A stretch of DNA of 29,125 nt. It comes from a virus. Where the stretch lies: IMG/VR virus record IMGVR_UViG_3300050821_018095, positions 1-29,125 of that record; one strand, written 5' to 3'. The notes beneath the pieces were generated by a model. It saw only the letters and a list, made by a program, of their open reading frames with translations. It had not been told where the DNA came from and searched no databases. Position numbers and translations under genes: made by a program. This document shows positions 462 through 24,629 of the stretch, in pieces (position 1 is the first letter of the stretch; every line of letters begins with the position of its first letter).

Positions 462-658
462 CGACGTACGCCACTCGCTCCCTCCACTGGACCACCGTGG
501 CGGACGACTGCGCCTTCGAGGAGGCGCGGGCGCCGATCGCCACGATGACCGTGACGGAGGCGGAGTCGCCGAGGCTGATCGAGACAGGGCTGCTGGACGC
601 GGGCGGAGAGAGGATCTACCGCGTGCGCGAGATTGTCAGGATGGGGTTCATTAGGTGA
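458..658 (+). CDS. Small hypothetical phage protein (66 aa)
   Basis: A 66-residue protein whose ATG overlaps the terminase stop codon. I do not recognise the family. It has a Trp in the N-terminal part, a central acidic stretch and a basic C-terminus (YRVREIVRMGFIR), with no signal peptide or membrane segment. Its own stop overlaps the GTG start of the next gene, so it sits inside a coupled string of tiny genes between terminase and portal. No function can be given. Confidence 0.6.
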   Translation: MTTYATRSLHWTTVADDCAFEEARAPIATMTVTEAESPRLIETGLLDAGGERIYRVREIVRMGFIR

Positions 659-885
659 CCGGCCGCTGGGGCACCGACCGAGGCGAGACTCGCCGGTCCT
701 CCGCCGATTCGGCGCGCGCTCCGTTCGCGCCGACGGACGGAGGGCAGACCGAGTCGAGGAGACTCGGTCTGGAGCTTCGCGGCTTCTTCGGCCGCGGATC
801 CGGCCGCAGAAGGCCGAGCGACATAGCGAGAGAGCTGAGCGACGCGATGTCGGCGTCGGGACCGTTTCCGAGGAGGCAGACATGA
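655..885 (+). CDS. M[S/T]GR[F/W]G-tagged small protein 1 (76 aa)
   Basis: This gene starts at GTG in a GTGA overlap with the previous stop. It encodes MTGRWG followed by a low-complexity, Arg/Ser/Gly-rich, strongly basic chain without a recognisable domain. The first six residues are shared with ten other small genes in the window; the rest matches none of them. The shared start supports the GTG as the real initiation codon. Apart from the tag it looks disordered. Function unknown. Confidence 0.65.
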   Translation: MTGRWGTDRGETRRSSADSARAPFAPTDGGQTESRRLGLELRGFFGRGSGRRRPSDIARELSDAMSASGPFPRRQT

Positions 886-1106
886 CACCCGAGGAGGCCG
901 CGGTTCTCGCGAGAACTCTGGATCACAGGGCCACGAGAAGTGCTCTCTGCTGTCTCGGCGAGCCATTGTCGGCTGCTCGGGAGAGATTCATGTTCGGCGG
1001 CGGCTCGCTGATCGGCGGTGGTTACTTGACGACGAGCGTCGAGCTGGACGTGACGACGAGAGCCGGAACGTTTCGCGCTGGTCAGATTGTCGTGGTGATC
1101 GGGTGA
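882..1106 (+). CDS. Small hypothetical protein (74 aa)
   Basis: The ATG start overlaps the stop of the preceding tagged gene. The 74 residues begin with an acidic helical stretch (MTPEEAAVLARTL). They continue into a Gly-rich segment (MFGGGSLIGGGYL) and end in a probable beta-rich section. There are adjacent Cys residues (CC) near residue 25. No signal peptide or known domain is recognised. Context is the string of tiny genes between terminase and portal. Confidence 0.55.
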   Translation: MTPEEAAVLARTLDHRATRSALCCLGEPLSAARERFMFGGGSLIGGGYLTTSVELDVTTRAGTFRAGQIVVVIG

Positions 1107-1110
1107 AGAG

Positions 1111-1320
1111 ATGAGCGGAAGATTCGGACGAATATCTGCTGACTCATCTCGCAAATTTGTCGAAAAGTACGCCGGTTACAGCATCTACGATGATGACGGT
1201 GCGTATGTCGTCGAGGAAAGTGGCACTATTCGCGGCAAACCTGATGGCTACAGCAGCGTAGAGGACGCACGCAGAAAGATCGATCAGATGCTTGGTCGAC
1301 GTCCGGGAAAGTTCAGATGA
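1111..1320 (+). CDS. M[S/T]GR[F/W]G-tagged small protein 2 (69 aa)
   Basis: A 69-residue protein starting MSGRFG. After the tag comes a short Ser-rich linker, then about 50 residues with a likely beta-beta-alpha pattern (SIYDDDGAYVVEE, then YSSVEDARRKIDQML). A similar pattern of strands followed by an S-x-E-x-EA-type helix is seen in the tagged proteins at 1707 and 20519, so these may share a mini-domain. The 3' end overlaps the next tagged gene. Base composition is more AT-rich than the flanking genes, suggesting separate origin. Confidence 0.7.
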   Translation: MSGRFGRISADSSRKFVEKYAGYSIYDDDGAYVVEESGTIRGKPDGYSSVEDARRKIDQMLGRRPGKFR

Positions 1321-1505
1321 CCGGCCGCTGGGGCGGTCGCCCCGCCGAGGACGACCTGGAGTCGAGAATTCAGTCCGCCGTGCGCCTCTACGAGCGACCC
1401 GGCACGCCGGGCGAGCGCGACGCGGCGGCAGAGGCGCTGCGGAGAATGGGAGTGGATCCTGACAAGCTGGATCCTAGGAAGTTCATGAGAGGACTACGGT
1501 CATGA
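1317..1505 (+). CDS. M[S/T]GR[F/W]G-tagged small protein 3 (62 aa)
   Basis: The ATG overlaps the preceding stop. The 62-residue protein begins MTGRWGG and is then mostly helical and charged (EDDLESRIQSAVRLYE, then ERDAAAEALRRMGVDPDKL). It is soluble, with no signal peptide. Its first 20 bases closely resemble the start of the tagged gene at 655 (same ACC-GGC-CGC-TGG codons), so these two form a W-type subgroup. The stop overlaps the following membrane protein gene. Function unknown. Confidence 0.7.
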   Translation: MTGRWGGRPAEDDLESRIQSAVRLYERPGTPGERDAAAEALRRMGVDPDKLDPRKFMRGLRS

Positions 1506-1684: not shown

Positions 1685-1706
1685 GATCTCGGTTCTTTCG
1701 CTGGCG

Positions 1707-1902
1707 ATGAGTGGTAGGTTCGGTCAGGACGCTCGATACAGTGAGATCGCTCGCTACGGGCAAGATCGTAGTGGAGGAGGATCCCGACCGTCGAATCTAC
1801 TATGTGCGGCCACCGAACGAGCGACGTGTTCGTTTCTCATCCGAGACGGAGGCGAGGCACTACGCCAAGAGTCTCTACGAGATAATTGAACGATACCGAT
1901 GA
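1707..1902 (+). CDS. M[S/T]GR[F/W]G-tagged small protein 4, needs a +1 frameshift
   Basis: The ATG at 1707 opens a frame beginning MSGRFGQDAR, which fits the extended tag seen elsewhere (MSGRFG-x-DA). That frame continues into low-quality sequence, while the +1 frame carries a convincing C-terminal half ending at 1902. It contains RRIYYVRP, then VRFSSETEARHYAKSLYE, and resembles the IYYV...VPSESEAHAASRAL segment of the tagged protein at 20519. The two halves are therefore one gene split by a frame change between about 1735 and 1790. A GTG at 1711 could start the second frame alone, but would lack the tag. Either a recent indel, a sequencing error or programmed shifting explains it. The stop overlaps the portal start. 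Confidence 0.6.
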
Positions 1903-3698
1903 CGCGCTCGTCCGCCGCCGACGCAGACCTCTCCGTCCCAGCGCTGCTCGCCCGCGCGCGAGCGCGCCGAGGCGGGAGCGCTTCGCGTCTCGCGCACATC
2001 TCCGCGTCGATGCTCGCGCTCGCGCGTCAGCGTCTCACCCCCCGGTCCCCGCTGCCCGGCTCGCAGCACGATCCGTTCAAGCCCGCGACTCCGTTCCCGG
2101 GCGCGATACCGAGAGGTCACACTCTCGCGATGGACGAGAGTGTGACTTTCCAGGCCGAGTGGGCCGCCGCGTCCTACTCGGCGGGCGCCGCCGCCTTCTC
2201 CTCCGCGTGGCAGGAGGGGACCGTGTTCCCCGGCTATCCGTTTCTCGCGTCTCTGGCCCAGCGTCCCGAGTACCGACGCCTGAGCGAGGTGATCGGCACC
2301 GAGATGACGCGGCGCTGGATCCGGTTCGGGTCCTCCGGCGGCGACGACAAGACCGAGCGCATCGCGGAGCTGACCGACGAGCTCGACCGCCTCGAGACGC
2401 GCGATCGCTTCCGGGCGCTCGCCGAGATCGACGGATACTTCGGCCGCTCGCACCTGTATCTGGACACGGGATCCACCGACGACCGGGACGAGCTGCGAAC
2501 GCCGATAGGCGACGGGCGCGGACAGGTGAGCCGGGCGAAGTTCGGAGGTCGCAGGGGATTCCTCAGAGCTCTGAGATCGGTGGAGCCGTACTGGGTCTAT
2601 CCGACGAACTACGACTCGAACGATCCGCTGCGGGGCGCGTGGTACGAGCCCGAGCAGTGGTACGTGATGGGCAAGGAGGTGCACGCGTCGCGCCTTCTGC
2701 GCTTCGTCGGGCGCGAGGTGCCGGACATGCTGAAGCCGGCCTACAGCTTCGGCGGTCTGAGCATGAGCCAGATGGCGCTGCCGTACGTCAACAACTGGCT
2801 GCGCACGCGGCAGAGCGTGGCGGACATCGTGCACGCGTTCTCGGTCTTCGTGCTCGCGACGAACATGAGCGAGACGCTCGGGCCGGATGGGGATCAGCTC
2901 TTCGCGCGTCTCGAGCTCTTCAATCTATGCCGCGACAATCGCGGCGTGATGGCGATAGACAAGGACGCGGAGGCGTTCCAGAACGTGAGCGCGCCGCTGG
3001 GCGGGCTGCACGAGCTCCAGGCGCAGACGCAGGAGCACATGTCGAGCGTCTCTGGCATCCCGGTTGTGAAGCTGCTCGGCATTACTCCGTCCGGCCTGAA
3101 CGCCAGCAGCGACGGCGAGATGCGCGCGTTCTACGACTGGGTGCACGCCTTCCAGGAGAAGCTCTTCCGGCCGAACCTGACGCGCGTGATCGACTTCGCG
3201 ATGCTCTCGCTCTGGGGCGAGGTGGACCAGGACATCACGTTCGAGTTCGAGCCGCTCTGGGCGCTGGACGAGAAAGGCGAGGCCGAGGTGAACCAGATCA
3301 AGGCGACCACCGGCGCGGCCTTAGTCGAGGGCGGCATCGTGTCGCAGGAGGAGGAGCGCCGTCGCGTCGCGAGCGACCCGAGCTCCGGATACGACTCGCT
3401 GGACGCGGAGGCGCTGCCGGATCTTCGCGAGGAGGAGGAGGGCGGCCTGGTGCCGGAGGGCGGCGGACGCGTGTCCGCCGAGCTGGCGGGTGGTCGCGCC
3501 GAGAAGGAGGGCGAGATCGACGACCCGAGAGGTGGAACGCCGGCGGAGAGCGGGGGCGGCGAGGACGACGGCCCGCTGCACAGGAACTTTCTCAAGGGCA
3601 AGAATCCGCTGTCGCCTGATCACCTGAAGGGGAAGAACCCGTTGAAGAAGGACTTCCTGAAGAACCGGGTCGCAGAGAAAGAGGACGCAGACGCGTGA
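1899..3698 (+). CDS. Phage portal protein (DUF1073 type)
   Basis: The 599-residue portal forms the dodecameric ring at one capsid vertex through which DNA is packaged and ejected. Family signs are the middle and C-terminal core, including the SVSGIPVVKLLGITPSGLNA segment (about residues 383-402), followed by GEMRAFYDWV. This is typical of DUF1073 portals. An unusual N-terminal extension of about 80 residues is Arg/Ala/Ser-rich and probably disordered. After about residue 500 there is an acidic Gly/Glu-rich tail, ending in tandem copies of a LKGKNPL motif (about 562-588). It starts by ATGA overlap with the frameshifted tagged gene. Order after terminase fits. The tail repeats are outside the known core. 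Confidence 0.88.
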   Translation: MTRSSAADADLSVPALLARARARRGGSASRLAHISASMLALARQRLTPRSPLPGSQHDPFKPATPFPGAIPRGHTLAMDESVTFQAEWAAASYSAGAAAFSSAWQEGTVFPGYPFLASLAQRPEYRRLSEVIGTEMTRRWIRFGSSGGDDKTERIAELTDELDRLETRDRFRALAEIDGYFGRSHLYLDTGSTDDRDELRTPIGDGRGQVSRAKFGGRRGFLRALRSVEPYWVYPTNYDSNDPLRGAWYEPEQWYVMGKEVHASRLLRFVGREVPDMLKPAYSFGGLSMSQMALPYVNNWLRTRQSVADIVHAFSVFVLATNMSETLGPDGDQLFARLELFNLCRDNRGVMAIDKDAEAFQNVSAPLGGLHELQAQTQEHMSSVSGIPVVKLLGITPSGLNASSDGEMRAFYDWVHAFQEKLFRPNLTRVIDFAMLSLWGEVDQDITFEFEPLWALDEKGEAEVNQIKATTGAALVEGGIVSQEEERRRVASDPSSGYDSLDAEALPDLREEEEGGLVPEGGGRVSAELAGGRAEKEGEIDDPRGGTPAESGGGEDDGPLHRNFLKGKNPLSPDHLKGKNPLKKDFLKNRVAEKEDADA

Positions 3699-3727
3699 TC
3701 CACTCGCAGCGCAGATCGAGCTGGCAC

Positions 3728-3757: not shown

Positions 3758-3762
3758 TGAGA

Positions 3763-4053: not shown

Positions 4054-4054
4054 G

Positions 4055-4392: not shown

Positions 4393-4613
4393 TCAGCGGT
4401 GTGCCCATGATCCCCGTGATCTCCTCCAATGTCGAGGCTCTCGGCCACGACGAGGCGGGACGGAGACTGATAGTCAAGTACAGAGGCGGCGTGCTCTGGG
4501 AGTACGACGGGGTGGACCGGGCGAAAGTGGACGCGCTGCTGGCGGCGGACTCGGTCGGGAGTTTTCTGCATCGGGAGATCAGGGGGAAACACGACGGGAG
4601 ACGTGTCCAATGA
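4389..4613 (+). CDS. KTSC domain protein (74 aa)
   Basis: The 74-residue product matches the small KTSC domain found in many phage and bacterial proteins. It has SSNVEALGHDEAGRRLIVKY, then GGVLWEYDGV, then a helix and the ending SVGSFLHREIRGKH, equivalent to the 'S.GsyfN..Ir' end of the family. KTSC domains are small beta-rich folds, sometimes fused to other proteins, with no settled function. The start is GTG at 4389 (a later ATG at 4407 is possible). Its 3' end forms the left arm of the hairpin around the next start codon. Confidence 0.75.
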   Translation: MISGVPMIPVISSNVEALGHDEAGRRLIVKYRGGVLWEYDGVDRAKVDALLAADSVGSFLHREIRGKHDGRRVQ

Positions 4614-4621
4614 CACGTCTC
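4598..4621 (+). promoter_or_regulatory. Perfect hairpin over the start codon of the head morphogenesis gene
   Basis: GAGACGTGTC (4598-4607) and GACACGTCTC (4612-4621) are perfect 10-base inverted repeats around a 4-base loop. The loop contains the A and T of the ATG at 4610, and the left arm takes part of the only Shine-Dalgarno-like run (GGGAG, 4596-4600). In RNA this would mask both ribosome binding site and start codon, a layout used in translational operators. Whether a protein binds it is unknown. Confidence 0.55.
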
Positions 4622-6418
4622 GGCAAGAACGACCGCGTCCTCGGCTCCGTCCGCCCCTGCTGCGGCACCGAGGCCGAGTACCGACGCCGTCTGCGCCTCC
4701 TGATCGACGATCTGCACGCGAGCGTGACCTACTGGATCCGCGCCGCGTGGCGCGCGAACGAGCCGGAGCTGCTGGACTCCATAGAGGAGATGCCGGAGGG
4801 CAGGCTCGCTTTCGACGCGCAAGTTTCACAGAGGCCGGAAGGCCACCCCGACGACTCCGCTGGGCTATCGGGCCTGAGGGGCGGACGACAGGGGCAGATT
4901 AGGCAGGCCCGACAGAGCGGGGGGACAACGAGGCCCCCGAGCCCCCCTCTCGAAGATTCGGCGGCGCCCCCCGGTCTCGCGCTCGATGCGATTCCGGCCG
5001 CCGCCCTCCAGGCCGCGATCCGCAGGCTGACGCGCCGTTGGCAGCGCAACTTCAACGCGGCGGCCGAGGATCTGGCAGATTGGTTCGGGCAGAGCGTGGG
5101 AAAGCGAAGCGACCGAGTGCTCGCTTCGCATCTCAAGAAGGCCGGCGTCACCGTCAAGTTCCGGTTGTCCCGTGCTCAACGCGACGTGCTCCGCGCCACG
5201 ATCGAGCAGAACGTTTCGCTCATTCGCTCGATACCGCAGAAGTATCTCCACGACGTGGAGGGCATGGTCATGCGCAGCGTGCAGACGGGGCGGGACCTGG
5301 GGCAGCTCACCAAGTCCCTGGAGCGCACGTACAAGACGACGAGGAAGCGCGCCGCGTTCATCGCGCGCGACCAGTCGAACAAGGCTACGTCCGCCTTGAA
5401 CCGCTCGCGCCTGATCGAGCTCGGCATCTCCGAGGCGATCTGGGTTCATAGTCACGCCGGCAAGGTGCCGAGGCCGACGCATCTGAAGATGCACGGCAAG
5501 AAGTTCGACGTCGCGGTCGGCATGTGGGATCCGGCCGAGGGCGAGCACGTTCACCCTGGCGAACTCATCAACTGTTTTCCTGGGTCAACTGATATACAGA
5601 TCGCTGACGGTGTGGAAAAAGCGTATCGGCATTGGTACAGCGGTGATCTGACCGAGCTTGTTACGAACACGGGTAAAACTGTGCGAGTTACACCTAATCA
5701 CCCGATTCTTACGCCGAGAGGGTGGGTCGCTGCAGGTCTTTTTGATGAGGGCGACGATATCGTCGAGATTGCCGATGAGGTCTTTCTTTCTGTGAAAGAT
5801 AACGCAGATCAGCGTGTACCCACTCTTGAAAAGATATTTGATGCGACGCTGCGAGCCGGGACCCTCAGGATGGAAGTTGCGCGGAGTGTACAGTTCCACG
5901 GCGACGGTTCCGGCAGCCATGTCGATATTGTATCTGCCGCACGGGCGCTGTCCTTCGGGATTGAGTCCCTCTTGTCGAAGGGCCGTTTCCATCTCGATCT
6001 CGCCGAGTCCGACAATGCGGCATTTTCTCTGAGCCTTGCGACGCATCTCTGTCGCCGAAGCCTTGGCACCGCGTCTCGCTTCATTCGCGGCCTTGGTAAG
6101 GCGCTGACGCCCCTTCTTACCTTCCCTCTTCATGCGCAAGATGTTTGCTTCGCTTCTACCTCGCAGTTTTCCACCAGCCTTCTTGATGCGCCTCTCGATG
6201 ACAGGTCTATTTGTATTGAACTCTTCAGCGAGAGCGAGGAGACTCGTTCCTCTCTCATGCTTCCTACGAAGCATGCGACAATATCTCGGATTCATCGGAA
6301 GGTATTTTCTGGCCACGTGTTTAATCTCCAGACTCGTGGTGGATGGTATGTATGCAATGGCATTGTAGCGCATAATTGCCGTTGCACAAGCCGCGCCGTC
6401 GTTCCGGGCTTCGCGTGA
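4610..6418 (+). CDS. Head morphogenesis protein (SPP1 gp7/Mu F-like) with in-frame intein
   Basis: A 602-residue precursor. The N-extein (1-321) is a phage minor head protein. It has a Pro/Gly-rich linker near 90-120, then a helical core, then the family end-motif around residues 270-321 (FIARDQSNKATSALNRSRL, RPTHLKMHGK, HPGELIN). The C-extein (590-602) begins CRCTSRAV. Joining 321 to 590 restores the classic HPGELINCRC motif, so splicing must rebuild the domain's most conserved, metal-site-like Cys segment. Mature length would be about 334 residues, normal for the family. Such proteins sit on the portal and assist DNA entry or capsid assembly. Its translation start is inside a hairpin. Confidence 0.88.
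   Translation: MTRLGKNDRVLGSVRPCCGTEAEYRRRLRLLIDDLHASVTYWIRAAWRANEPELLDSIEEMPEGRLAFDAQVSQRPEGHPDDSAGLSGLRGGRQGQIRQARQSGGTTRPPSPPLEDSAAPPGLALDAIPAAALQAAIRRLTRRWQRNFNAAAEDLADWFGQSVGKRSDRVLASHLKKAGVTVKFRLSRAQRDVLRATIEQNVSLIRSIPQKYLHDVEGMVMRSVQTGRDLGQLTKSLERTYKTTRKRAAFIARDQSNKATSALNRSRLIELGISEAIWVHSHAGKVPRPTHLKMHGKKFDVAVGMWDPAEGEHVHPGELINCFPGSTDIQIADGVEKAYRHWYSGDLTELVTNTGKTVRVTPNHPILTPRGWVAAGLFDEGDDIVEIADEVFLSVKDNADQRVPTLEKIFDATLRAGTLRMEVARSVQFHGDGSGSHVDIVSAARALSFGIESLLSKGRFHLDLAESDNAAFSLSLATHLCRRSLGTASRFIRGLGKALTPLLTFPLHAQDVCFASTSQFSTSLLDAPLDDRSICIELFSESEETRSSLMLPTKHATISRIHRKVFSGHVFNLQTRGGWYVCNGIVAHNCRCTSRAVVPGFA
5573..6376 (+). mobile_element. Intein in the head morphogenesis gene (268 aa)
   Basis: The intein begins at Cys (residue 322 of the precursor; CFPGSTDIQIADG) and ends HN before the +1 Cys. 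Splicing blocks are clear: block A at the start, block B TPNHPILTPRGWV, block F GHVFNLQTRGGWYVCNG, block G IVAHN followed by C. All nucleophiles (C1, block-B His, terminal His-Asn, C+1) are present, so it should be active. No LAGLIDADG or HNH domain is seen in the sense frame. The centre contains FHGDG...VDIV, which I associate, from memory, with other phage inteins. It is AT-richer than the surrounding exteins, a sign of transfer. The opposite strand codes for an endonuclease. Confidence 0.9.
5585..6295 (-). CDS. Vsr-like homing endonuclease encoded antisense within the intein
   Basis: On the minus strand a frame stays open across almost the whole intein (6373 down to 5585); the ATG at 6295 gives 236 residues and is the likeliest start. 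The order of parts is that of HTH-plus-nuclease homing enzymes. First is a resolvase-like helix-turn-helix (GTSLLALAEEFNTNRPVIER, then RIKKAGGKLRGRSEAN). A basic helical linker follows (KGRQRLTKAANEARRGAK). Then comes a Vsr/PD-(D/E)XK-like core with GEIEMETALRQEGL, GRYNIDMAAGTVAVEL, a downstream NFH, and RRIKYLFKSGYTLICVIF. A C-terminal segment with PPSRRKNRVIRC ends it. Candidate catalytic residues are the Glu in GEIE, the Asp in NID, the Glu in VAVE and the His in NFH. It is the only minus-strand gene I support here. No clear ribosome binding site was found. Confidence 0.78.
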   Translation of the reverse strand: MNPRYCRMLRRKHERGTSLLALAEEFNTNRPVIERRIKKAGGKLRGRSEANILRMKREGKKGRQRLTKAANEARRGAKASATEMRRKAQRKCRIVGLGEIEMETALRQEGLNPEGQRPCGRYNIDMAAGTVAVELYTPRNFHPEGPGSQRRIKYLFKSGYTLICVIFHRKKDLIGNLDDIVALIKKTCSDPPSRRKNRVIRCNSHSFTRVRNKLGQITAVPMPIRFFHTVSDLYIS

Positions 6419-6813: not shown

Positions 6814-6824
6814 ATCTCTCGGAT

Positions 6825-7295: not shown

Positions 7296-7525
7296 AAGTT
7301 CTTCTCGCCTCGCTTCTTCTCTCGACCTGGTCTCTCGCTGCCGACATGCCGACGCAGCCGCCGTCGGCCGTCGTCTCCGCGTGCGCGAGCGACGCGCTGC
7401 GGCTGTGCGCCGCGGAGGCGCTGGCCGGCGATCACGTGCGCATCGGCGCGTGCATGAGAAGGCAGGCCGGCAGGGTGAGCGAGACGTGTCGCGTGGCGGT
7501 GGCGGAGTGGAGAAGAGGCAGGTGA
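7292..7525 (+). CDS. Secreted small cysteine protein (77 aa)
   Basis: It starts at GTG in a GTGA overlap. A Sec signal peptide (MKVLLASLLLSTWSLAADM) is followed by about 60 residues with four Cys arranged as ACASDALRLC, then ACMRRQAGRVSETC. This four-Cys pattern is typical of small periplasmic proteins of Hyphomicrobiales and their phages. Being coupled with the preceding secreted protein, the two probably act together in the periplasm. A lysis-accessory (spanin-like) role is conceivable, but no endolysin or holin is next to it. Confidence 0.65.
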   Translation: MKVLLASLLLSTWSLAADMPTQPPSAVVSACASDALRLCAAEALAGDHVRIGACMRRQAGRVSETCRVAVAEWRRGR

Positions 7526-9975
7526 CCGTCGCCGCGATCAGCACCGCGCCGAACGGAGGGGTGCCCGTCGGAAAGATCCGACGAGCAGATGACGCGAAAC
7601 TTCGCGCAGCCGGCCTCCTGCTCCAGACGCCCGACGGCCTCGCGCTGTTTCTGCGGCGCTCCGACGTCGGCGACCACGCCGGCGAGTGGTGTATCCCTGG
7701 GGGAAAGTTGGAAGCTGACGAGCAGCCGCTCGAGGCGGCTACTCGTGAAGCACGAGAAGAAATAGGCTGGATCCGCCCCGACGACGTGGACGAGCCCGAA
7801 CTCCTCGACGAGCGCACGAGCGATGAGGACGTGGAGTTCACGACGTACGCCGTCGGGGTCAACAATCCGTTCGTTCCAGAACTGGACGACGAGCACGACG
7901 GATGGGCGTGGGCGCCCGTGGACTCGCCGCCGCTGCCGCTGCACCCGGGAGTGGAGGCGACGATTCGGGAGAGACTAGCGAGCGACGCCGCCGAGTCCGG
8001 CGCCAGCCGCGCCCTGCTGCGCAGCACGATCAAGTATCCGCCCGACTCTGCCGGCAAGACCGGCGTGCGCGCTATCAACGTGGCGATGGCGGAGGGTGGA
8101 GTCGAGGGGAGCCTGAAGTACGCGCCGAAGGCGCAGGAGTTCGAGAACAGCGGCGGTCGCATCACGCACGCGGGCGACGAGGCCGAGGATGCCCCCAGCC
8201 TCTCCAAGCGCGACGCGCGCTACTCCGATGGTCCAGTCTCCAGCGAGCCGTGCGAGGCGTGCTCGATGTTTCGCCCCGGGCAGTCGCAGGACGTCAATCA
8301 CTGCTCGCTCGTGCAGGGAGTCATCAGGGCGAGAGGCCATTGCTCCAAGTGGAGATCCGGGACTGGCGACGAGGCTCGCCCCCTGGTCGCGGCGGACTCG
8401 ATCGCGCTGGACGAGAAGTCTGCTCGCGAGTTCGACCTGGACGGCAGGATGCGCGTCGCGCAGGTCAATATCTCGAAGGCGAACGTCTGTCCCTACCTGG
8501 GCAGCGAGATTCCCGGGTACGAGGAGCTCGGTCTGCGGGCAGACAAGATCTACAAGCTGCTTCGCGATCCGGACGAGCTCGAGAAGGCGGCGCCGACGTT
8601 CAACGGAATTCAGCTTCTCATGCGCCACGTGCCCGTGAGCGCCGACGACCCGAAGCAGTGGGATGTCGTCGGCTCGGTCGGCACGGAGGCCGCGTTCGAG
8701 AGGCCCTACCTGAAGAACTCTCTGACCGTGTGGACTCAGCCGGCGATAGACGCCATCGAGTCCGACGAGCAGAAGGAGTTGTCGAGCGCCTATCACTACA
8801 GGCCCGACATGACCCCTGGCGTATACGAGGGGGAAGATTTCGACGGTGTCATGCGGGACATAGTCGGAAACCACCTCGCTCTCGTCCGCGAAGGACGAGT
8901 TGGGGCCGACGTCGTCGTCGGCGACAGCAAGGAGATGCTGAACATGAGTGCAAGGAAGGATGGACTGTCGCGTCGAGCCGGCATCGCTCTGCTCGCCACG
9001 GCGGCCTGGATTCGGCCGAGGCTGGCGCAGGACGCCGTGCTCGACCTGCGACCCGCGTTCCGCGGAGTGACCGCGAAGAACTTCGCGGACCAGAAGGGGA
9101 GCATCGTCGCCCGCCTCGGGGACCTGACCAAGGGCAAGCTCGCGAAGGACGCCACGATCGGCGAGGTCGCCGAGCTGCTCGACATGATCGAGTCGCACGG
9201 CACCGAGGGCGACGAGGACGACATGCCCGAGCCCATGGCGGACGCGGCGGAGAACATCGGCGAGAAGTTTGCCGAGAGAGACGCCATGGACGCCGAGCCT
9301 CTGGCCGCCGTGGAGGAGTTCCTTCGCGGCAAGCTGTCCGACGAGGATCTCGAGCGAGCCTGCGCGATGCTGCGAGGCGGAGGCGAGGACGAGGACCCGA
9401 AGCTGAGAGAGCTCGGAGCGGCCGACGACGCCGAGAACGAGGAGGAGCGCTCCAGCAATGCGCGCACCGACCGCGAGACGAACGAGGACGAGCCGGCCGA
9501 GCGCGAGGAGATGGCGGCCGCCATCAAGGCCGAGGAGGCGAAGGGCAAGAAGAAACCCGGCGCGAAGGACGAGCCGCCGCCGTTCAAGGGACGGCCGAGG
9601 CCAGGAGGAGCGATGGACGGCATGGTCACGAAGACGGCGATGGACGCGGCGCTGCGGAAGGTGGCCGAGGACACCCGCACGGCTGTGCTCCGCACTCAGC
9701 GCGAGATCTCGGACGCTCTGCGCACCGTGCGGCCGTGGGTGGGCGACATCACCGTCGCCTGCGACTCGGCCGACGACGTGTATCGGCACGCGCTTCGCGC
9801 TCTCAGAGTGCCGAAGATCGACCAGATCCATCCGTCGGCCTTTCCGCACATTCTGGCGGCGCAGCCGCTGCCCGGGACTCGCGCTCGCGAGACTCGGCCG
9901 GGGGCGGCCGACGCGGCCAGCCACAGCAGCTTCGCAGAGCGATTCCCGGACGCCGCGCGCGTTCGGGTCGCGTGA
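7522..9975 (+). CDS. Nudix hydrolase / four-Cys cluster / DUF2213 / scaffold-like fusion protein
   Basis: An 817-residue fusion starting at GTG in a GTGA overlap. Residues about 25-160 are a Nudix domain with a perfect Nudix box at 61-83 ([20 protein letters not shown] plus IGW), which hydrolyses nucleoside-diphosphate-linked compounds. Residues 244-274 hold a CX2CX13CX12C cluster resembling high-potential iron-sulfur proteins. Residues about 310-480 match DUF2213, the phage prohead protease/scaffold-associated domain ([20 protein letters not shown], then [14 protein letters not shown]). The rest (about 500-817) is acidic, Glu/Ala-rich and helical like a scaffold, with basic and Pro stretches. 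Place just before cement and capsid genes supports a head-maturation role. Nudix and Cys parts may act inside the prohead or be released by cleavage; that is inference. Confidence 0.75.
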
Positions 9976-9988
9976 GGAGGACAGAGAC

Positions 9989-14804: not shown

Positions 14805-14947
14805 CGTTCGTGGTGGGGTTTCTCGTGATCGCGAGTGTCGGCGTCATCATCGCTGCAATGGCAGTCAGGCAGATAGAGGTCAACTCAGTCGAGAAGATGT
14901 GGAGCGATTGCGTTGACAAAGCGCGCGATCGCACGGGCAAGTCGTGA
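14801..14947 (+). CDS. Small single-pass membrane protein (48 aa)
   Basis: GTG start in a GTGA overlap. The first ~22 residues are a membrane helix (MTFVVGFLVIASVGVIIAAM), followed by a charged tail of about 25 residues with one Cys. It may be an N-anchored inner membrane peptide or have an uncleaved signal. Stop overlaps the GTG of the thiamine enzyme beta gene. Unknown role. Confidence 0.5.
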   Translation: MTFVVGFLVIASVGVIIAAMAVRQIEVNSVEKMWSDCVDKARDRTGKS

Positions 14948-15471
14948 GCGCGTACTACGACGAGCTCCGCCGCGTTATGACCGCGCTGTCCGAGGATCCG
15001 CGGATCATCTTCATGGGTCAGTCGGTCGCGTGCGAGGGGACCGCGATGCGCGGCACCCTGACGAGAGTTCCGGCGGACAGACTCCTGGAGCTGCCAGTGT
15101 TCGAGGATACTCAACTCGGCATGGCGCTCGGCATGTCGCTGACAGGGCTGCTGCCGATCTGCATGTATCCGCGAATCAACTTCCTGCTGCTCGCGATGTC
15201 TCAGCTCGCGCTGCATCTCGACAAGTTGTCGCTCTACTCGCGGGGCGGCTACCGCCCGCGCGTCATAGTGCGGACGGCGATCGGGACGGATCGGCCGCTG
15301 GACCCGGGCGTTCAGCATCTCGGCAACTACGCGGACGCGCTGTCGCAGATGCTCAGCGTGGTGCGCGTGGTGCGGCTCGAGAGCGCGAAGATGATCGAGG
15401 AGCAGTATCACGCCGCGACGCGGCGCGAGCACTCGACGGTGCTCGTTGAGGACATGGGGCTGTACGCATGA
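14944..15471 (+). CDS. Thiamine diphosphate-dependent enzyme, beta (pyrimidine-binding) part
   Basis: A 175-residue protein like the pyrimidine-binding domain of transketolase/E1-beta. It has DPRIIFMGQSVACEGT near the start. The Glu of LLELPVFEDTQLGMALGMSL around residue 55 is in the place of the catalytic Glu that activates thiamine. ICMYPRINFLLLAMSQL and VIVRTAIGTDRPLDPGVQHL follow. The usual C-terminal transketolase domain is absent, as expected for compact phage forms. It should assemble with the alpha part at 13865, though three tiny genes lie between them. GTG start, coupled at both ends. Reaction unknown; probably makes a keto-sugar or acyl precursor in the cassette. Confidence 0.78.
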   Translation: MSAYYDELRRVMTALSEDPRIIFMGQSVACEGTAMRGTLTRVPADRLLELPVFEDTQLGMALGMSLTGLLPICMYPRINFLLLAMSQLALHLDKLSLYSRGGYRPRVIVRTAIGTDRPLDPGVQHLGNYADALSQMLSVVRVVRLESAKMIEEQYHAATRREHSTVLVEDMGLYA

Positions 15472-15731
15472 GCGGTCGATTCGGCTCAGACGCGTCGCCA
15501 GCGGCCGAGGGAAATCGCAACACGGCTCAGCGGATGGTGAACGCTGAGAACGGCTTCGTAGACAACTTGATGCAGCTCGGCGGTATCACGAGAGCAGATG
15601 CCGTCAAGGTCCTCGGCGTGTATCGCAAATTGAAGATCGTCAAGATGGACGCGGTGGGCGGACGGATGACCGTGAAACACGGATCCTATCTGGACCGCGA
15701 CGTGATCCAGAGAGCTCTCAGGCAGGCGTGA
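15468..15731 (+). CDS. M[S/T]GR[F/W]G-tagged small protein 5 (87 aa)
   Basis: It starts MSGRFGSDAS in an ATGA overlap. After a Ser/Ala/Asn-rich linker, residues about 28-87 form a helix-rich domain (NGFVDNLMQLGGITRADAVK, then VLGVYRKLKIVKMDAVGGR, then MTVKHGSYLDRDVIQRAL). This pattern is familiar from small phage proteins that lack the tag, and may be a winged-helix-like module. Its stop overlaps the GTG of the PLP enzyme, so the pair is coupled. Function unknown. Confidence 0.72.
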   Translation: MSGRFGSDASPAAEGNRNTAQRMVNAENGFVDNLMQLGGITRADAVKVLGVYRKLKIVKMDAVGGRMTVKHGSYLDRDVIQRALRQA

Positions 15732-16873: not shown

Positions 16874-16915
16874 GAATGCTTGTCACAGGTGTTATCATGT
16901 GCTACACGTCACGGC

Positions 16916-18376: not shown

Positions 18377-18377
18377 C

Positions 18378-18671
18378 ATGAGCGGACGATTTGGAAAATT
18401 GACGAAAGATGCTGTTGGGAGTTACGCTGAACGAGCTGAACTCGCGCGTCTGAACGATAAGAGGCTAAGTGGGAAGGGATTCCAGATCGGACAACGTTGG
18501 TGTCGCGACAACTACGGCAAGACTAAAGATCAGTGCAGAACGTGGGCTAAGAGTCAAGGTTACGGCACTGCAGAAGTGGCTGAGATCCTCAGAGGATACG
18601 CCGAAGAGCGCACTATGATGCATGAGATGGGAGTTCGCAACAAGAACACAAACAGGGGGTTTTTAGATTAG
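18378..18671 (+). CDS. M[S/T]GR[F/W]G-tagged small protein 6 (97 aa)
   Basis: The ATG lies one base past the SDR stop. The protein begins MSGRFGKLTKDAVG and then forms a basic, helical chain (ELARLNDKRLSGKGFQIGQR, YGKTKDQCRTWAKSQGYG, TAEVAEILRGYAEERTMM). Two Cys and several Trp suggest a compact fold. No known family. It is AT-richer than the enzyme genes around it. Confidence 0.7.
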   Translation: MSGRFGKLTKDAVGSYAERAELARLNDKRLSGKGFQIGQRWCRDNYGKTKDQCRTWAKSQGYGTAEVAEILRGYAEERTMMHEMGVRNKNTNRGFLD

Positions 18672-18806
18672 ATGCATCTGGATCTCCTCATAGTCCACCC
18701 CTGGGGAATGCGTGACCATGACACTGCTTCTGCTGCCGCGCGAGTTTCGCTGGAAGCAACTTCGACTATGGATGCGCATGCATGTCTGGCCTTGATCTTC
18801 TCATAA
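18672..18806 (+). pseudogene. Truncated 5' remnant resembling the radical SAM gene
   Basis: A 44-codon frame directly after the tagged gene begins MHLDLLIVHPWG, which matches the start of the radical SAM protein at 19062 (MSLDLLIVHPG). After about 12 residues similarity stops and the rest looks non-coding-like (ARVSLEATSTMDAHACLALI). This could be the remains of an earlier or duplicated radical SAM or glycosyltransferase gene. The segment 18672-18819 otherwise holds nothing I recognise. Confidence 0.4.
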
Positions 18807-18819
18807 ATACGAGTGTCGC

Positions 18820-19065
18820 ATGAGCGGACGGTTCGGCAAGGACGCGAAGAAGCCCGACTATGACTTTTCAACCGCTGCGGGGCAGAAGCGCATGATGGAA
18901 GAGAACCGCCCCGGCAGCAGTGGATACGTAGATCCTAATCGCCGCGTTGATCTTCAAAAGAAGGGAGACTATGGCGCAGATCCTCTTGGGAATGGAAAAT
19001 TCAGAATGGTCCCGAGCGGTGATATCGTCGACTTCGAAGAACGAAATCGGAGACTGAAGAAGTGA
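18820..19065 (+). CDS. M[S/T]GR[F/W]G-tagged small protein 7 (81 aa)
   Basis: It starts MSGRFGKDAKKPDYDF. The rest is hydrophilic and basic (AAGQKRMMEENRPGSSGY, then DPNRRVDLQKKGDYGADPLG) and ends in a strand-rich part with FRMVPSGDIVDFEERNRRL. It has no Cys, signal or membrane segment. Stop overlaps the GTG of the radical SAM gene, so the two are translationally coupled. No clear Shine-Dalgarno sequence precedes it. Confidence 0.7.
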   Translation: MSGRFGKDAKKPDYDFSTAAGQKRMMEENRPGSSGYVDPNRRVDLQKKGDYGADPLGNGKFRMVPSGDIVDFEERNRRLKK

Positions 19066-20522
19066 GCCTCGACCTGCTGATCGTCCACCCCGGCGCCGCT
19101 CACGGCATCTACGGCGCTCTCGGCGACACGCTCGTCGCCGTGGAGTCGCCGCTGTGGGCGAGGCTGATCGCCGGGTACTGCCGGGACCGGGGGTGGAGTG
19201 TTCGCATTCTGGACGCAGAGGCGAGTCGCGTCGGCCCCGAAGCCGTGGCCGCCGTGGCAGAACAGGAGCGTCCCCGACTCGTCTGTCTCGCCGTCTACGG
19301 TCATCAGCCGTCGGCGTCCACGCAGCAGATGCACGGGGCGGGGCTGACGGCGCGGGCGATCAGGAGCATCTGGCCCGAGGCGAAGATCATCATGCTCGGC
19401 GGGCATCCGTCGGCGCTGCCGGGCAGAACTATGGTCGATGAAGACATTGATTATGTCTGCGTCGGCGAGGGACCGATCACCGTGGACACGCTGCTTCGAG
19501 GCGAGCAACTTGAGAGAGTGCCTGGACTCGTCTACAAAGTGAATAGCGTGATCGCCATGAACGAGCGAGCACCTCTGATCGAGGACATCGGTCAGCTTCG
19601 CGGCGACGCGTGGGATCTGCTGCCGATGAGCGCGTACCGCGCCCACAACTGGCAATGCTTCGGCGACATGAGCAGGCGTCAGCCGTACGCCAGCATCTAC
19701 ACGTCGCTCGGCTGTCCGATGAGCTGCTCGTTCTGCTGCATCAACGCTCCGTTCGGCGAGCGCCGCTACCGCACGCGCCCCCCGGGCGACGTGGTCGCCG
19801 AGGTGCGAGTGCTGCGCGAGCGATACGGCGTCAGCACTCTCAAGATCACGGACGAGATGTTCGTGCTCAATCCTCGGCACTACGGCGCGATCTGCGAGGG
19901 CCTCGCCGCGCTGCCGCACGCCGACGAGCTGAATATCTGGTCCTACAGCCGGATCGACACGGTGAAGCCTGACAAGCTGAGTCTGCTGCGTCGCGCTGGC
20001 GTCAGATGGCTCGCGCTCGGCATCGAGTCGGGCTCGGCGTACGTGCGGGATGGCGCGAGGAAGGACTTCCGGAACTCGGACATCGAGGGCGTCGTTCGCG
20101 CCATTCAGGCGGCGGGCATCAACGTGATCGGGAACTATATCTTCGGACTGCCGGACGATGACATTGCCTCCATGTGCGCGACCCTGTCGCTGGCGCAGGA
20201 GCTCAACACTGAGTTCGCCAACTTCTACTGCGCGATGTCGTATCCCGGCTCGCCGCTGTATGACGAGGCAGTTCGCGAGGGCTGGACGCTGCCGAGCTCG
20301 TGGAGAGCCTACAGTCAGCACAACAGCGAAAGTAGACCACTGGACACGCGACACGTGAGCGCGGCGCACGTTCTCAGATTCAGGGACGAAGCGTTCATTC
20401 AGTACTTCTCCTCATCCCGCTACCAGGACATGATCGGCGCGAAATTCGGCGAGGAGACGCTCGCGCACGTTCGCAGCATGACGGAGTATAAACTGGAGCG
20501 AAAGCTTCTGGAGGCAGCATGA
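19062..20522 (+). CDS. B12-binding-type radical SAM protein
   Basis: A 486-residue protein starting at GTG. The N-terminal ~160 residues form a cobalamin-binding-like Rossmann domain (LDLLIVHPG, VCLAVYGHQPSAS, AKIIMLGGHPSALPG, YVCVGEGP). The radical SAM domain follows with CPMSCSFC (Cys218, 222, 225) for the 4Fe-4S cluster, then ALGIESGSAYVRDG and GNYIFGLPDDD. Such enzymes methylate or rearrange unreactive carbons. In this cassette a modified sugar or lipid is the likely substrate, but that is inference. The C-terminal ~80 residues are a helical extension. Coupled to tagged genes at both ends. Confidence 0.85.
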   Translation: MSLDLLIVHPGAAHGIYGALGDTLVAVESPLWARLIAGYCRDRGWSVRILDAEASRVGPEAVAAVAEQERPRLVCLAVYGHQPSASTQQMHGAGLTARAIRSIWPEAKIIMLGGHPSALPGRTMVDEDIDYVCVGEGPITVDTLLRGEQLERVPGLVYKVNSVIAMNERAPLIEDIGQLRGDAWDLLPMSAYRAHNWQCFGDMSRRQPYASIYTSLGCPMSCSFCCINAPFGERRYRTRPPGDVVAEVRVLRERYGVSTLKITDEMFVLNPRHYGAICEGLAALPHADELNIWSYSRIDTVKPDKLSLLRRAGVRWLALGIESGSAYVRDGARKDFRNSDIEGVVRAIQAAGINVIGNYIFGLPDDDIASMCATLSLAQELNTEFANFYCAMSYPGSPLYDEAVREGWTLPSSWRAYSQHNSESRPLDTRHVSAAHVLRFRDEAFIQYFSSSRYQDMIGAKFGEETLAHVRSMTEYKLERKLLEAA

Positions 20523-20581
20523 GCGGACGATTCGGCGGCAGGGCGAGCGAGAAAGCCGGGGCGCGAGACATGGCGATGGAC
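20519..20581 (+). repeat. 63-base tag block, copy 1 (copy 2 at 21630-21692)
   Basis: Comparing 20519-20581 with 21630-21692 gives 57 of 63 identical bases. The six differences alter one residue (Met/Leu). Downstream the two genes diverge completely. The block therefore looks like an exchangeable N-terminal module that was copied and joined to different partners. Confidence 0.85.
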
Positions 20582-20743
20582 ACTGGGATCTATTATGTCT
20601 CCTATAAGAACAAGAAAACTGGACAAGTGAAAAGAATTCGAGTTCCATCGGAGAGCGAGGCGCATGCGGCCTCCCGTGCTCTTGGGTATCTCCCAAAGGA
20701 GAACCGCGAGGACTGGGAGCATCTGAAGACAGAGCAACCGTGA
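20519..20743 (+). CDS. M[S/T]GR[F/W]G-tagged small protein 8 (74 aa)
   Basis: The ATG overlaps the radical SAM stop. The first 21 residues (MSGRFGGRASEKAGARDMAM plus D) are nearly identical to those of the tagged protein at 21630, but the rest is different. It has a compact beta-beta-alpha pattern: IYYVSYKNKKTGQVKRIRV, then SESEAHAASRALGYLPKE. That part resembles the C-terminal half of the tagged protein at 1707. Stop overlaps the GTG of the next glycosyltransferase-like gene. Function unknown. Confidence 0.73.
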   Translation: MSGRFGGRASEKAGARDMAMDTGIYYVSYKNKKTGQVKRIRVPSESEAHAASRALGYLPKENREDWEHLKTEQP

Positions 20744-21633
20744 CACGCGTCGTAGTTCTCCGCACCTTCACGAGCTCCTGCGTTCCGATCTTCTCGCCGC
20801 TGCGACGCCTCGGTCACGAGGTCTCCGAGATAACGTACGATCTGCGCGGCGTCGACTTCGGCGCGCTGCCGGCTCGGGTCGCCGAGCTGCGACCCGACTG
20901 GGTCCTGCTGATGGGCTGCGCGGACGACCAGCCGACGGCATTAGTTCCCACGGTCGATGTCCTCTCCGACATCGGCCGCGTCTTCCCTCTAGTGCACTTG
21001 TGTTGCGACGGCTCCGAGCCCGTGTGGTGGCCGCAGCTCGAGAGATACCGGGACAGCGGCGCGTTCGCGCTGCAGATCAACGTGGACGGCGTGCGCGTCG
21101 GCCCGATCGCGGAGGACGGAATCACCTGCCTCTGCCCGATCGATCCGGCGTCTCTGCCGGATCCGCCGAGACCGCACGCCGAGCGGACGGTGCGACTCGG
21201 GTTCTGCGGGAGCAGCGGCGGCGACCATCCGCGGACGCGCGCCTTAGAAAGCATCATGGACGTATTGACCATACGTCCACGAGACCACGACTCTCCGGCC
21301 GGCTATCTCGACTTCCTCTCGTCGTGCCGATGCGCGTGGAACCACGCGGCGACGGGCACGGGCGACAGGTCGCACGTCAAGGCGAGAGTGATAGAGGCCG
21401 CCCTGGCGGGCGCGCTCGTGCTCGAGACGGCCGGATCGCCGACGCGGCGGTGGTTCGCGCCGGGCGAGGATTATCTGGAGTACAACAGCGCGGACGAGGT
21501 GAGAGAGCACCTCGCCTGGGCCGACGTCCGACCTGAGGAGGCCGAGGCGATGGCGCTGCGAATGCGAAGAAAGATAGTCGAGAGCCACTCGCCCGCGTTG
21601 CTGTGGGACGAGGTGATCAGGAAAATCACATGA
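20740..21633 (+). CDS. Glycosyltransferase-like protein (CgeB/GT4-like), paralog A
   Basis: A 297-residue protein starting at GTG. It has two Rossmann-like halves as in GT-B enzymes: VVVLRTFTSSCVPIFSPLRR with LGHEV, and a C-terminal half with HVKARVIEAALAGALVLETA and RWFAPGEDYLEYNSADEV. This is the donor-binding motif of Glyco_trans_1_2 (CgeB-like) proteins. The first half also contains WVLLMGCADDQP and PLVHLCCDGSEPVW, both paralleled in the protein at 22818, so these are paralogs. It presumably transfers a nucleotide-activated sugar; acceptor unknown. Confidence 0.75.
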   Translation: MTRVVVLRTFTSSCVPIFSPLRRLGHEVSEITYDLRGVDFGALPARVAELRPDWVLLMGCADDQPTALVPTVDVLSDIGRVFPLVHLCCDGSEPVWWPQLERYRDSGAFALQINVDGVRVGPIAEDGITCLCPIDPASLPDPPRPHAERTVRLGFCGSSGGDHPRTRALESIMDVLTIRPRDHDSPAGYLDFLSSCRCAWNHAATGTGDRSHVKARVIEAALAGALVLETAGSPTRRWFAPGEDYLEYNSADEVREHLAWADVRPEEAEAMALRMRRKIVESHSPALLWDEVIRKIT

Positions 21634-21863
21634 GCGGACGATTCGGTGGCAGGGCGAGCGAGAAGGCCGGGGCGCGGGATCTCGCGATGGACGCTTCCGA
21701 GTTCAGGGTCGGCGACAAGGTGCACCTTGGCTTCGGCGTTAAAGGTGGAGCAGGGTTTTACGGCGTCGTGACGAAGATCGATGATCGCATGGTCAAGATT
21801 CGCAATCCCGAGGGAAAGACGTACACGGGGCCGGTCAGTCGACTGACGAGTGACGATCGCTGA
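21630..21863 (+). CDS. M[S/T]GR[F/W]G-tagged small protein 9 (77 aa), SH3-like
   Basis: It starts at ATG in an ATGA overlap. The first 21 residues duplicate those of the gene at 20519. The rest, about residues 23-77, is a small beta-barrel-like module (EFRVGDKVHLGFGVKGGAG, FYGVVTKIDDRMVKIRNPEG, then KTYTGPVSRLTS). That module is familiar, from memory, as a stand-alone small protein in other phages without the tag. Such folds often bind nucleic acid or protein. The stop overlaps the next tagged gene. Confidence 0.73.
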   Translation: MSGRFGGRASEKAGARDLAMDASEFRVGDKVHLGFGVKGGAGFYGVVTKIDDRMVKIRNPEGKTYTGPVSRLTSDDR

Positions 21864-22153
21864 TGTCTGGTCGCTGGGGCGCGAGCGACGCGAAGCCTCT
21901 CGCGGAGATGCCGAGAGCTGAGCTACTGCGTCGCATCGCGAAGCTGGACGCTGAGTCCAGTGACCTCAACAAACAGTTGATCCAGGCGGGACATGGTCTC
22001 ACCAAGATCCAGGACATTTTGAAGATGTCCGATCCTCTGTCGCAGAAGTACAAGAAGAACCACGAGGAGCAGATGGAGCTGAGAGCCGAGCGCGAGCATC
22101 GAATGCGTTATCAGGGCACCGAGCATCCGGTAAAGAAGAGCAAGTGGCTGTGA
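21863..22153 (+). CDS. M[S/T]GR[F/W]G-tagged small protein 10 (96 aa), coiled coil
   Basis: It starts MSGRWGASDAK (with TCT for Ser and TGG for Trp). Most of the chain is helical and charged, probably a coiled coil (RAELLRRIAKLDAESSDLNK, QLIQAGHGLTKIQDIL, KKNHEEQMELRAEREHRM). It ends in a basic tail (HPVKKSKWL). It could oligomerise. The stop overlaps the start of the glycosyltransferase gene. Confidence 0.72.
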   Translation: MSGRWGASDAKPLAEMPRAELLRRIAKLDAESSDLNKQLIQAGHGLTKIQDILKMSDPLSQKYKKNHEEQMELRAEREHRMRYQGTEHPVKKSKWL

Positions 22154-22821: not shown

Positions 22822-23705
22822 GATTCCTAGTCCTCACGACTGGCACGCCAGACACCGAGAAGCTCGTCCGCTCCGTGACGTGCCTCGGTCACGAGACCCG
22901 CGTGGTGCAGTACGACGTCGTGGGCGTGGACGTGCCGGGCGTGGTCGAGGAGACGCGAGCGGACGCGACGATCTACGTCGGCGCGTGCGACGACTTTCAC
23001 AACGGAGCGCCCGTGCCGTCGGTCGACGCGCTGTGCCGCATGAATCGCGCGTCGCCGATGATTCACATCTGCTCCGACGCGGCCGATCCGCCGTGGCATT
23101 CTCTTCTCGAGAGCTACCATGCTGCGGGCGCCTTCAGACTTCAGGTCGCGATCGACGGCGTTCGCTCGTCGCCGATTGGACGATTCGGGCGGGTCGCTCT
23201 CACTCCGGTCGACCCGTCGCAGTACGTCGAGCGACCCTGGAGCGAGCGAAGCGTGCCGTGCGGCTTCGCCGGCGGAGGCGGCGCCCGCGTCGACTGGATT
23301 CGTCCCATGATCGATCGCGGCGCGCTTCAGTGGTGGAACGAGAGCGGCTTCGCGCCGTACGCCGAGCTCTGCGAGTTCTACGGGCGCTGCCAGCTCGTCG
23401 TGAACGACGCGCGAAGCGGCAGCGGCGCGGCGCGGCACGTGAAGGGCAGGTTCGTCGAGGCGTCGCTGGCCGGCGCCGTGATCGTGGAGCCGCGCGACTC
23501 GCCGGCCCGCGAGTGGTTCGAGCCCGGCGTGGACTTCCTGGAGTGGGGCTCGGTGGACGAGGCGACCGAGCACGCGCGGCAGGCTTCGAGCAGATCCGCA
23601 GAGAACGAGAAGATGGCGAGCAGGATGCGAGCCGGCATGCTGGAGCGCCACGCGGCCGGGCCGTTCTGGCGCGGCGTGCTGGAGCAGGCGGGCATATCGT
23701 GCTGA
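22818..23705 (+). CDS. Glycosyltransferase-like protein (CgeB/GT4-like), paralog B
   Basis: A 295-residue protein with the same plan as the gene at 20740. It opens with RFLVLTTGTPDTEKLVRSVT then CLGHE. ATIYVGACDDF and PMIHICSDAADPPWHSLLES follow. The donor-binding region is HVKGRFVEASLAGAVIVEPR, then REWFEPGVDFLEWGSVDEA. The two proteins probably arose by duplication and may add sugars in sequence. Start is GTG in a GTGA overlap. It is the last gene before a 151-base non-coding gap, so it may end the cassette transcript. Confidence 0.75.
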   Translation: MRFLVLTTGTPDTEKLVRSVTCLGHETRVVQYDVVGVDVPGVVEETRADATIYVGACDDFHNGAPVPSVDALCRMNRASPMIHICSDAADPPWHSLLESYHAAGAFRLQVAIDGVRSSPIGRFGRVALTPVDPSQYVERPWSERSVPCGFAGGGGARVDWIRPMIDRGALQWWNESGFAPYAELCEFYGRCQLVVNDARSGSGAARHVKGRFVEASLAGAVIVEPRDSPAREWFEPGVDFLEWGSVDEATEHARQASSRSAENEKMASRMRAGMLERHAAGPFWRGVLEQAGISC

Positions 23706-23856
23706 TACAACTTGTGGTAGCCGCAACAGGCCGTTTCTGGGACGCTTTTGGGCTCTGGGCTACTAGGGTAGCGCCCGGCGCCGAAAAACGCACGGGCGGA
23801 GCCTCCAGGCGTCGTTTTTGGGCTGATTCTGCCCCCTGTCAGGGGCCGTCTTAGCC
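23706..23856 (+). terminator. Non-coding boundary between sugar cassette and tail genes, with inverted repeats
   Basis: This is the longest gap without any reading frame that makes sense. It contains CGAAAAACG (23782-23790) facing CGTTTTT (23813-23819), and a CCCCTG/CAGGGG palindrome around 23833-23845. GC-rich arms and a T-run point to a terminator. A promoter for the tail genes may also be here, but no good -10/-35 pair can be defended. A short repeat GGG[AC]..CTTTTGGGCT / CGTTTTTGGGCT occurs twice (about 23738-23751 and 23813-23824). Confidence 0.45.
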
Positions 23857-24300
23857 GTGGCGACCACGCGGGGCGGCAGCAAGGCCGCCAAGGTGCTGGA
23901 GCGCATCGCCGTGGCCGCCAAGAGAGCGCAGCGCGTGCGGGTCGGCTTCCTATCGGACGCCACGTATCCGGACGGCACGTCGGTCGCCATGGTCGCGGCG
24001 ATACAGGACTTCGGCGCGCCGCGCGCGGGCATTCCGCCTCGTCCGTTCTTCCGGAACATGATCGCGGCGAAGTCTAAGGACTGGCCCGAGGCGGTCGGCA
24101 GGTTGCTGATCGCGAATAACTTCGACGCTCAGCGGACATTGGAGCAGGCCGGCGAGGCGATAGCCGGTCAGCTTCGACAGTCGATTCACGACACGAACTC
24201 GCCGCCGCTCAAGCCGGCGACGATCAGGGGCAAGGGATTCGCGAAGCCACTCATCGACACGTCGGTGATGATCAACAGCGTGAGCAGCGAGGTGGAGTGA
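23857..24300 (+). CDS. Tail-completion/virion morphogenesis protein (HK97 gp10/Mu gpG-like)
   Basis: A 147-residue protein starting at GTG. The pattern [20 protein letters not shown], then [20 protein letters not shown], then a helical section ([11 protein letters not shown]) and [20 protein letters not shown] is that of phage neck or tail-completion proteins. The 'VA...EFG......PPRPF' and 'PLIDTG.M..S' boxes are typical. It would sit at the head-tail or tail-tube joint. Its stop overlaps a tagged gene. The upstream gap suggests this may begin a new transcript. Confidence 0.75.
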
Positions 24301-24629
24301 TGAGCGGGCGGTTTGGACAGATGGCTGCTGATGCTAATGTTGAACCAAAGTCTGTATTGGAAGGAATGAAGTTCCTGCCGACAAGAATTCAGGAGCAGGT
24401 GAGGCGAATCGGTAAGCCTGAAAATCTGAAGATGTCAGATCTTCCTCCAAGAATTCAAGAGATTATTCGACGACAGGGTGGAAGTGGAAGAGACTCCGAT
24501 CTCGCCACCGATCCTCCAGTCTCCGAAGCTCAGCGCCGCGCGATGTTCGCCGCGAAGGCGGGGCGCAGCACGCTCGGCATACCGAAGAGCGTCGGCGAGA
24601 AGTTCGTGGGCAAGGGGCACGACAAGTAG
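24300..24629 (+). CDS. M[S/T]GR[F/W]G-tagged small protein 11 with DUF3008-like end (109 aa)
   Basis: The ATG overlaps the previous stop. It begins [18 protein letters not shown] helical middle contains a repeated RIQE motif ([22 protein letters not shown]). The end, [20 protein letters not shown] followed by [11 protein letters not shown], matches the DUF3008 motif found in many phage proteins. This shows the tag can be joined to a known phage mini-domain. The first two thirds are AT-rich and the DUF3008 part is GC-rich, so the gene is itself a composite. It abuts the next glycosyltransferase-like gene. Confidence 0.75.

Follow-up and report, generated by a model that had tools for sequence, protein, structure and literature searches.

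A probable capsid-targeting propeptide shared by small accessory proteins in a clade of DUF2213-protease phages

The window analysed here is a 29,125-base IMG/VR record of an uncultivated phage; the record is incomplete, i.e. it covers a fragment of the genome. An earlier note on this DNA had pointed to eleven small genes with a common M[S/T]GR[F/W]G start. Translation of the window gave this hexapeptide at 11 of 11 of the noted starts, every one on the plus strand, compared to only 0.02 (order-3) or 0.005 (order-5) such starts expected in six frames from Markov models of the window. Codons 2 to 6 of the tag copies differ by 149 synonymous versus 42 non-synonymous codon-pair differences, whereas the five codons after the tag show 23 versus 226. 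This mostly synonymous variation in the tag means that selection acts on the peptide, and the earlier claim that the peptide rather than the DNA is under selection could thereby be confirmed. A literature search for the hexapeptide yielded no match. In addition, 68 matches of the literal hexapeptide DNA pattern were obtained in viral contigs, which we rejected as chance because few of them lie at plausible gene starts and none continues like the tag.

The window also contains the head genes of the phage, all on the plus strand, namely the portal protein (1899..3698), a minor head (Mu F-like) protein (4610..6418), the head maturation protease (7513..9975), a cement protein of the E217 gp24 / XM1 gp53 type (9983..11047) and the major capsid protein (11060..12151). 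The protease combines a NUDIX and a DUF2213 domain (PF09979, E 9e-44) and matches phrog_2229 (E 4e-117), which assigns it to the PHROG head maturation proteases; the DUF2213 protein is presumed to act as processing enzyme and scaffold. Starting from the capsid protein of the window, we found 63 related loci. Capsid proteins of nearly all these relatives carry [LIM]A[MIL]D-A approximately 40 residues from the start, and their portals show the same kind of site inside an otherwise variable N-terminal region. The consensus of this maturation site is [LIMV][AV]xD↓[AST], the arrow marking the cut. It is found in the window as LAMD↓A in the capsid protein (residues 41-45), LAMD↓E in the portal (residues 76-80), LAFD↓A (66) and LALD↓A (123) in the minor head protein and in several copies in the protease, while the cement protein is without a site and serves as negative control. 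A position model trained only on the relatives' capsid and portal proteins (75 distinct sites) also matched 54 of 61 proteases and 22 of 43 minor head proteins of the relatives, compared to 1 of 66 cement proteins, 1 of 45 DUF4054 proteins and none of the sugar enzymes.

The tagged genes differ in what follows the tag. The gene at 655..885 encodes MTGRWGTDRGE with a weak site (SSAD↓S); its tag is present as described before, but its start codon is GTG. A counterpart in the related phage G011 (MTGRWNTQRGE) also lies immediately after the terminase gene. The gene at 1111..1320 (MSGRFGRISAD↓SS) has a weak site, and that at 1317..1505 (MTGRWGGRPAED) no clear one. At 1707..1902, the tag reported earlier is present in the 1707 frame, but the likely body, a beta-beta-alpha domain, is encoded in the +1 frame (1711-1902). 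Further downstream follow 15468..15731 (MSGRFGSD↓AS) with a helical, winged-helix-like body, 18378..18671 (MSGRFGKLTKD↓AV) with a weak site, 18820..19065 (MSGRFGKDAKK) without a strong site, 20519..20743 (MSGRFGGRASEKAGARDMAMD↓TG) with a strong site, 21630..21863 (MSGRFGGRASEKAGARDLAMD↓AS) with a strong site and an SH3-like body, 21863..22153 (MSGRWGASD↓AK) with a coiled-coil-like body and no strong site, and 24300..24629 with a strong site and a so-called LGIP module at its C-terminal end. Searches of the tagged proteins against Pfam and PHROG were largely unproductive; only the 21630 product was matched (SH3-like). The bodies were previously described as unrelated, which is true for most of them, but the 1707 body, the 20519 protein and perhaps the 1111 protein are mutually alike small beta-beta-alpha domains (1711 body versus 20519: blastp E 0.009). 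A fold model of this group was too poor for use. The 15468 protein has an untagged homologue in an Alicyclobacillus phage; only the first residues are missing there. The structure model of the 15468 protein shows a helical body (pLDDT 77) that bears a small wing, preceded by a disordered tag; a fold search with this model gave no match at E <= 0.001.

A separation of tag and body into different frames (+1) was observed in two phages, in the window at 1707-1902 and in the phage represented by the contigs G011/G012 (L167 4201-4414 and L193 4626-4840). In the latter case the split may be real, since two contigs from different samples agree. It may represent a pseudogene, slippage or a programmed frameshift.

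Maturation sites accumulate directly behind the tags. A strong site (score >=7, within approximately 25 residues after the tag) is present in 8 of 24 tagged proteins, i.e. in 20519, 21630 and 24300 of the window, in G001 74729 and 92646, in G006 53553 and in G011 2447 and 4626, the last entry relying on an inferred frame junction. Residue shuffles of the tagged proteins gave on average 0.23 strong sites and never more than 3 in 2000 rounds, and among other small ORFs of the same genomes only 22 of 2315 have one. The Fisher test for the association of site and tag resulted in p ~1e-10, a value that overstates independence because the tags share descent. Moreover, members from G004, found after the model was built, carry LAMD↓SN (score 16.2) and LALD↓AD (score 11.5). 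The remaining tags are followed by a weak site (1111, 18378, 655), by a bare D-A (15468, 18820, 21863) or by no site. About two thirds of the tagged proteins are without a strong site, with none in 1317, 18820, 21863 and several members of G006 and G022. In phage T4 targeting and cleavage are separable (PMC9026906), hence siteless tags do not in themselves speak against a targeting function, but they limit the claim.

The boundary of the conserved unit is most evident from the genes at 20519 and 21630. These were noted to have the hexapeptide in common, which is correct, but their actual common leader has 21 residues with at most two differences rather than six residues. At the DNA level 59 of 66 positions are identical in the stretch that begins with the ATG and includes the predicted P1 aspartate codon and one more codon after it, while the flanking DNA is at chance level (18 of 60 identical before, 16 of 55 after) and the bodies differ. 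Since the identity stops at the cut site, the copied unit is the leader up to this site.

The hexapeptide belongs to a longer element, of which it is the core and which occurs in two forms. The first, GR[FWYRH]GGR-x-S-x2-4-AG-x-RD, stands mostly directly behind M, MS, MT, MA or MTM; the second reads M[SA]GR[FY]G[RKQ][LMVI][ATS]xD[AS], also given as MSGRFG-x-[LM]Ax-D-A. The narrow tag pattern detected two close relatives, the extended patterns added G011/G012 (two contigs of one phage) and G022, and a fuller reading of G002 and G004 revealed tags in both. In the capsid-protein tree, the window, G011, G002, G001, G006 and G004 form one clade with a support of 0.995. All 6 of 6 phages of this clade bear the element, as does a seventh relative, G022, which has no capsid gene in its record and a portal that is 56% identical. 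The clade sequence (524 kb) contains the extended element 14 times, whereas the other relatives (971 kb) have 0 copies. Regarding the question whether related phages share the tag at all, on which the earlier note had made its proposal depend, it is present throughout one clade and was not found outside. The tag-bearing phages are a little-known group of soil phages. A search of the 23-residue leader against 50,697 phage records gave no match, short queries being weak in such searches, and 10 matches of the extended element in the scanned bacterial genomes included no full element at a plausible gene start. The strictly N-terminal position described earlier holds within the window, but in relatives the element is also found internally and in tandem. 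In G011 it occurs both at the start of and within one protein; one G002 protein has two copies and one G004 protein three, with predicted cut sites between the copies. Two such proteins (L206 5486-6490 and L202 10866-11675), with two to three elements and predicted cut sites in between, resemble polyproteins of tagged cargo.

Additional evidence comes from the LGIP module. In 19 of 19 outgroup loci with this module, it shares an ORF with the maturation protease, or with the NUDIX portion of the protease if the ORF is truncated, whereas in 4 of 4 tag-clade phages in which it was found it is separate and tagged (Fisher 1e-4). The simplest reading of this exchange is that fusion and tag both lead to the prohead interior. 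The gene context is conserved, too: the window, G001 and G006 are syntenic for portal, minor head protein, protease, cement, capsid, DUF4054 and sugar genes, the latter comprising two TPP-enzyme halves, a DegT aminotransferase, an epimerase and a B12-radical-SAM gene. The junctions occupied by the tagged genes differ from phage to phage, and these genes have the appearance of insertions in the late operon.

The site has been placed by experiment in homologous phages. The capsid protein of E217, a distant homologue, contains SGSAMD↓SNFTAPV, and its structural model starts at residue 66 (PMC10329688). In virions of the PB1-like phage KPP12 the sequenced N-terminus of the capsid protein begins exactly after the AMD↓ site (PMC3474789). 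The E217 protease also belongs to DUF2213, and for this protease group the position of the site thus has an experimental basis. In Pa193 the inside of the capsid is bound by a scaffold fragment derived from gp24, which lines the five-fold vertices there (PMC11042391); from gene order and length we infer that this gp24 is the DUF2213 protein. The window phage and these Pbunavirus members (E217, Pa193, KPP12) are homologous in capsid protein, cement protein and DUF2213 protease, and in the latter phages the capsid N-terminus is removed after AMD↓S. In contrast, a search with the tag leader in a phage collection containing these three gave no match.

Taking the element, its restriction to one clade, its co-occurrence with the site, the module boundary and the tag-or-fusion exchange as they are read from the sequences, we infer packaging, a docking partner, cleavage of tagged proteins and ejection. 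The shared peptide is probably a capsid-targeting propeptide, similar in its working to the capsid-targeting sequence (CTS) of T4 and unrelated to it in sequence. The GR[FWYRH]G-centred element would dock small accessory proteins inside the assembling prohead, with the scaffold/protease core or the inner shell as the probable partner. In part of the tagged proteins the DUF2213 protease would then cut at the [LIMV][AV]xD↓[AST] site behind the tag and free the mature body within the head; the body could then enter the host along with the DNA. A T4-like cargo signal for the capsid had been named before as one candidate, and it gains support from the head-maturation site behind part of the tags, from the experimental placement of this site in homologous phage, from the duplicated leader that stops exactly there and from the module that is fused to the head protease in relatives and tagged when standing alone.

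In T4 the internal proteins IPI, IPII and IPIII carry such a CTS, a short N-terminal propeptide ending at the prohead protease site, and IPII and IPIII have identical propeptides with differing mature parts (PMC9026906). A short N-terminal peptide common to otherwise different small proteins, presumably head proteins in our case, is thus found in both systems. As to the ending at a cleavage site, strong sites are present in the 8 of 24 proteins and the later-found members, and weak or absent sites in the others; many tags lack a strong site. Furthermore, cleavage occurs behind D preceded by [LIMV][AV]x, compared to E after L/I-x in T4 (PMC9026906), the protease is of the DUF2213 type rather than gp21, and there are more tagged genes, internal and tandem copies and the exchange with a protease fusion. 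Judged by sequence, site and known protease, the tag is not a member of the T4 CTS family. Head proteins of giant phages (gp45 and gp225 of SPN3US; phiKZ) likewise have N-terminal propeptides of approximately 20-24 residues cut by the prohead protease (PMC10052503), comparable to the removal predicted for the tags. However, protease and site are different, and the part of that paper considered here describes no shared sequence tag.

Other explanations need to be weighed against the capsid-targeting propeptide. A short shared N-terminal strand can also attach different proteins to the outside of a capsid, as it does for the linking proteins LP1 and LP2 of Agrobacterium phage Milano, the remainders of which differ or are disordered (PMC10491603). 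The small-domain nature of several bodies and the modelled disorder of the 15468 tag are compatible with such an anchor. However, the Milano proteins are external and disulfide-linked to an external minor capsid protein, with no adjacent maturation site described (PMC10491603), whereas the tags are free of cysteine and part of them precede strong maturation sites, which occur in prohead-internal proteins and not in the external cement protein. Moreover, the LGIP module that is tagged is one found in the internal protease, and we regard external anchoring as unlikely. Docking to the protease itself or to another phage or host factor, without packaging into the head, would agree with the tag preceding a protease site, but the capsid and portal proteins have the same site without any tag. 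Cleavage by a prohead protease normally occurs within the prohead, and therefore most versions of this idea collapse into the main explanation; what is left of it appears quite improbable, and for the docking to a host factor suggested in the earlier note we found no support.

The composition of the element (GRFGGR, GRRGGR, GRWGGR), rich in Gly, Arg and aromatic residues, also resembles RGG-like nucleic-acid binding sequences, which could bring proteins into the head together with the DNA or retain them on host nucleic acid, and at least one body is winged-helix-like. Yet the six-residue tag forms have a single Arg, and neither the adjacent head-protease site nor the exact module boundary is explained in this way, making it very improbable. 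Finally, the common start could be a functionless by-product of repeated small-gene duplication or recombination at a DNA hotspot. The near-identity of the 20519 and 21630 DNA at the start only and the different junctions of tagged genes in different phages fit to this assumption. It is nevertheless hardly credible, given that most tag copies differ synonymously in contrast to the five codons behind them and that independent members retain the tag.

On a broader level, we lean towards the view that a capsid-targeting code arose independently of T4 in a clade of phages with a DUF2213 protease, and that in this code the propeptide is interchangeable with protease fusion. To the same cautious degree we favour that this propeptide is modular and can stand before, or in tandem between, arbitrary small domains. 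If so, these phages would possess an open platform for loading proteins that are injected into the host as infection begins, and another large group of phages would have an independent equivalent of the loading of internal proteins in T4. With the [LIMV][AV]xD↓[AST] rule, proteins processed in the head could then be predicted for DUF2213 phages, many Pseudomonas, Acinetobacter and Klebsiella phages among them, and likely injected proteins, i.e. candidate host-takeover or counter-defence factors, could be listed from sequence alone.

Some further observations were made at this locus. A conserved sugar-synthesis cluster (13865-25566) with split TPP E1 alpha/beta, DegT, epimerase, B12-radical SAM and several glycosyltransferase genes is placed within the head/tail operon, and G001 and G006 show synteny for the core of this cluster. 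A peptide-modification (RiPP) system formed by the radical-SAM gene and the tags was dropped as an explanation, because the G001 radical-SAM gene is syntenic without an adjacent tagged gene and the bodies are unrelated. A tagged protein of G004 and a part of the window protease are both Cys-rich, but the relationship expected between the two gained no support from alignment. The minor head gene is interrupted by an intein-like segment, across which an antisense ORF of 262 codons (5585-6373, minus strand) extends that gave no Pfam match. Outside the tag clade, two small proteins without a tag, L008 1381 (TAMD↓AA) and L015 5767 (LAMD↓ES), have a strong site near their start and are possible internal head proteins with other leaders. 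In the window protease, a self-cleavage site is predicted behind the N-terminal NUDIX domain (LASD↓AA at residue 155), hence the NUDIX enzyme may be a cargo released in its own right; a NUDIX domain is found at this position of the protease in many relatives.
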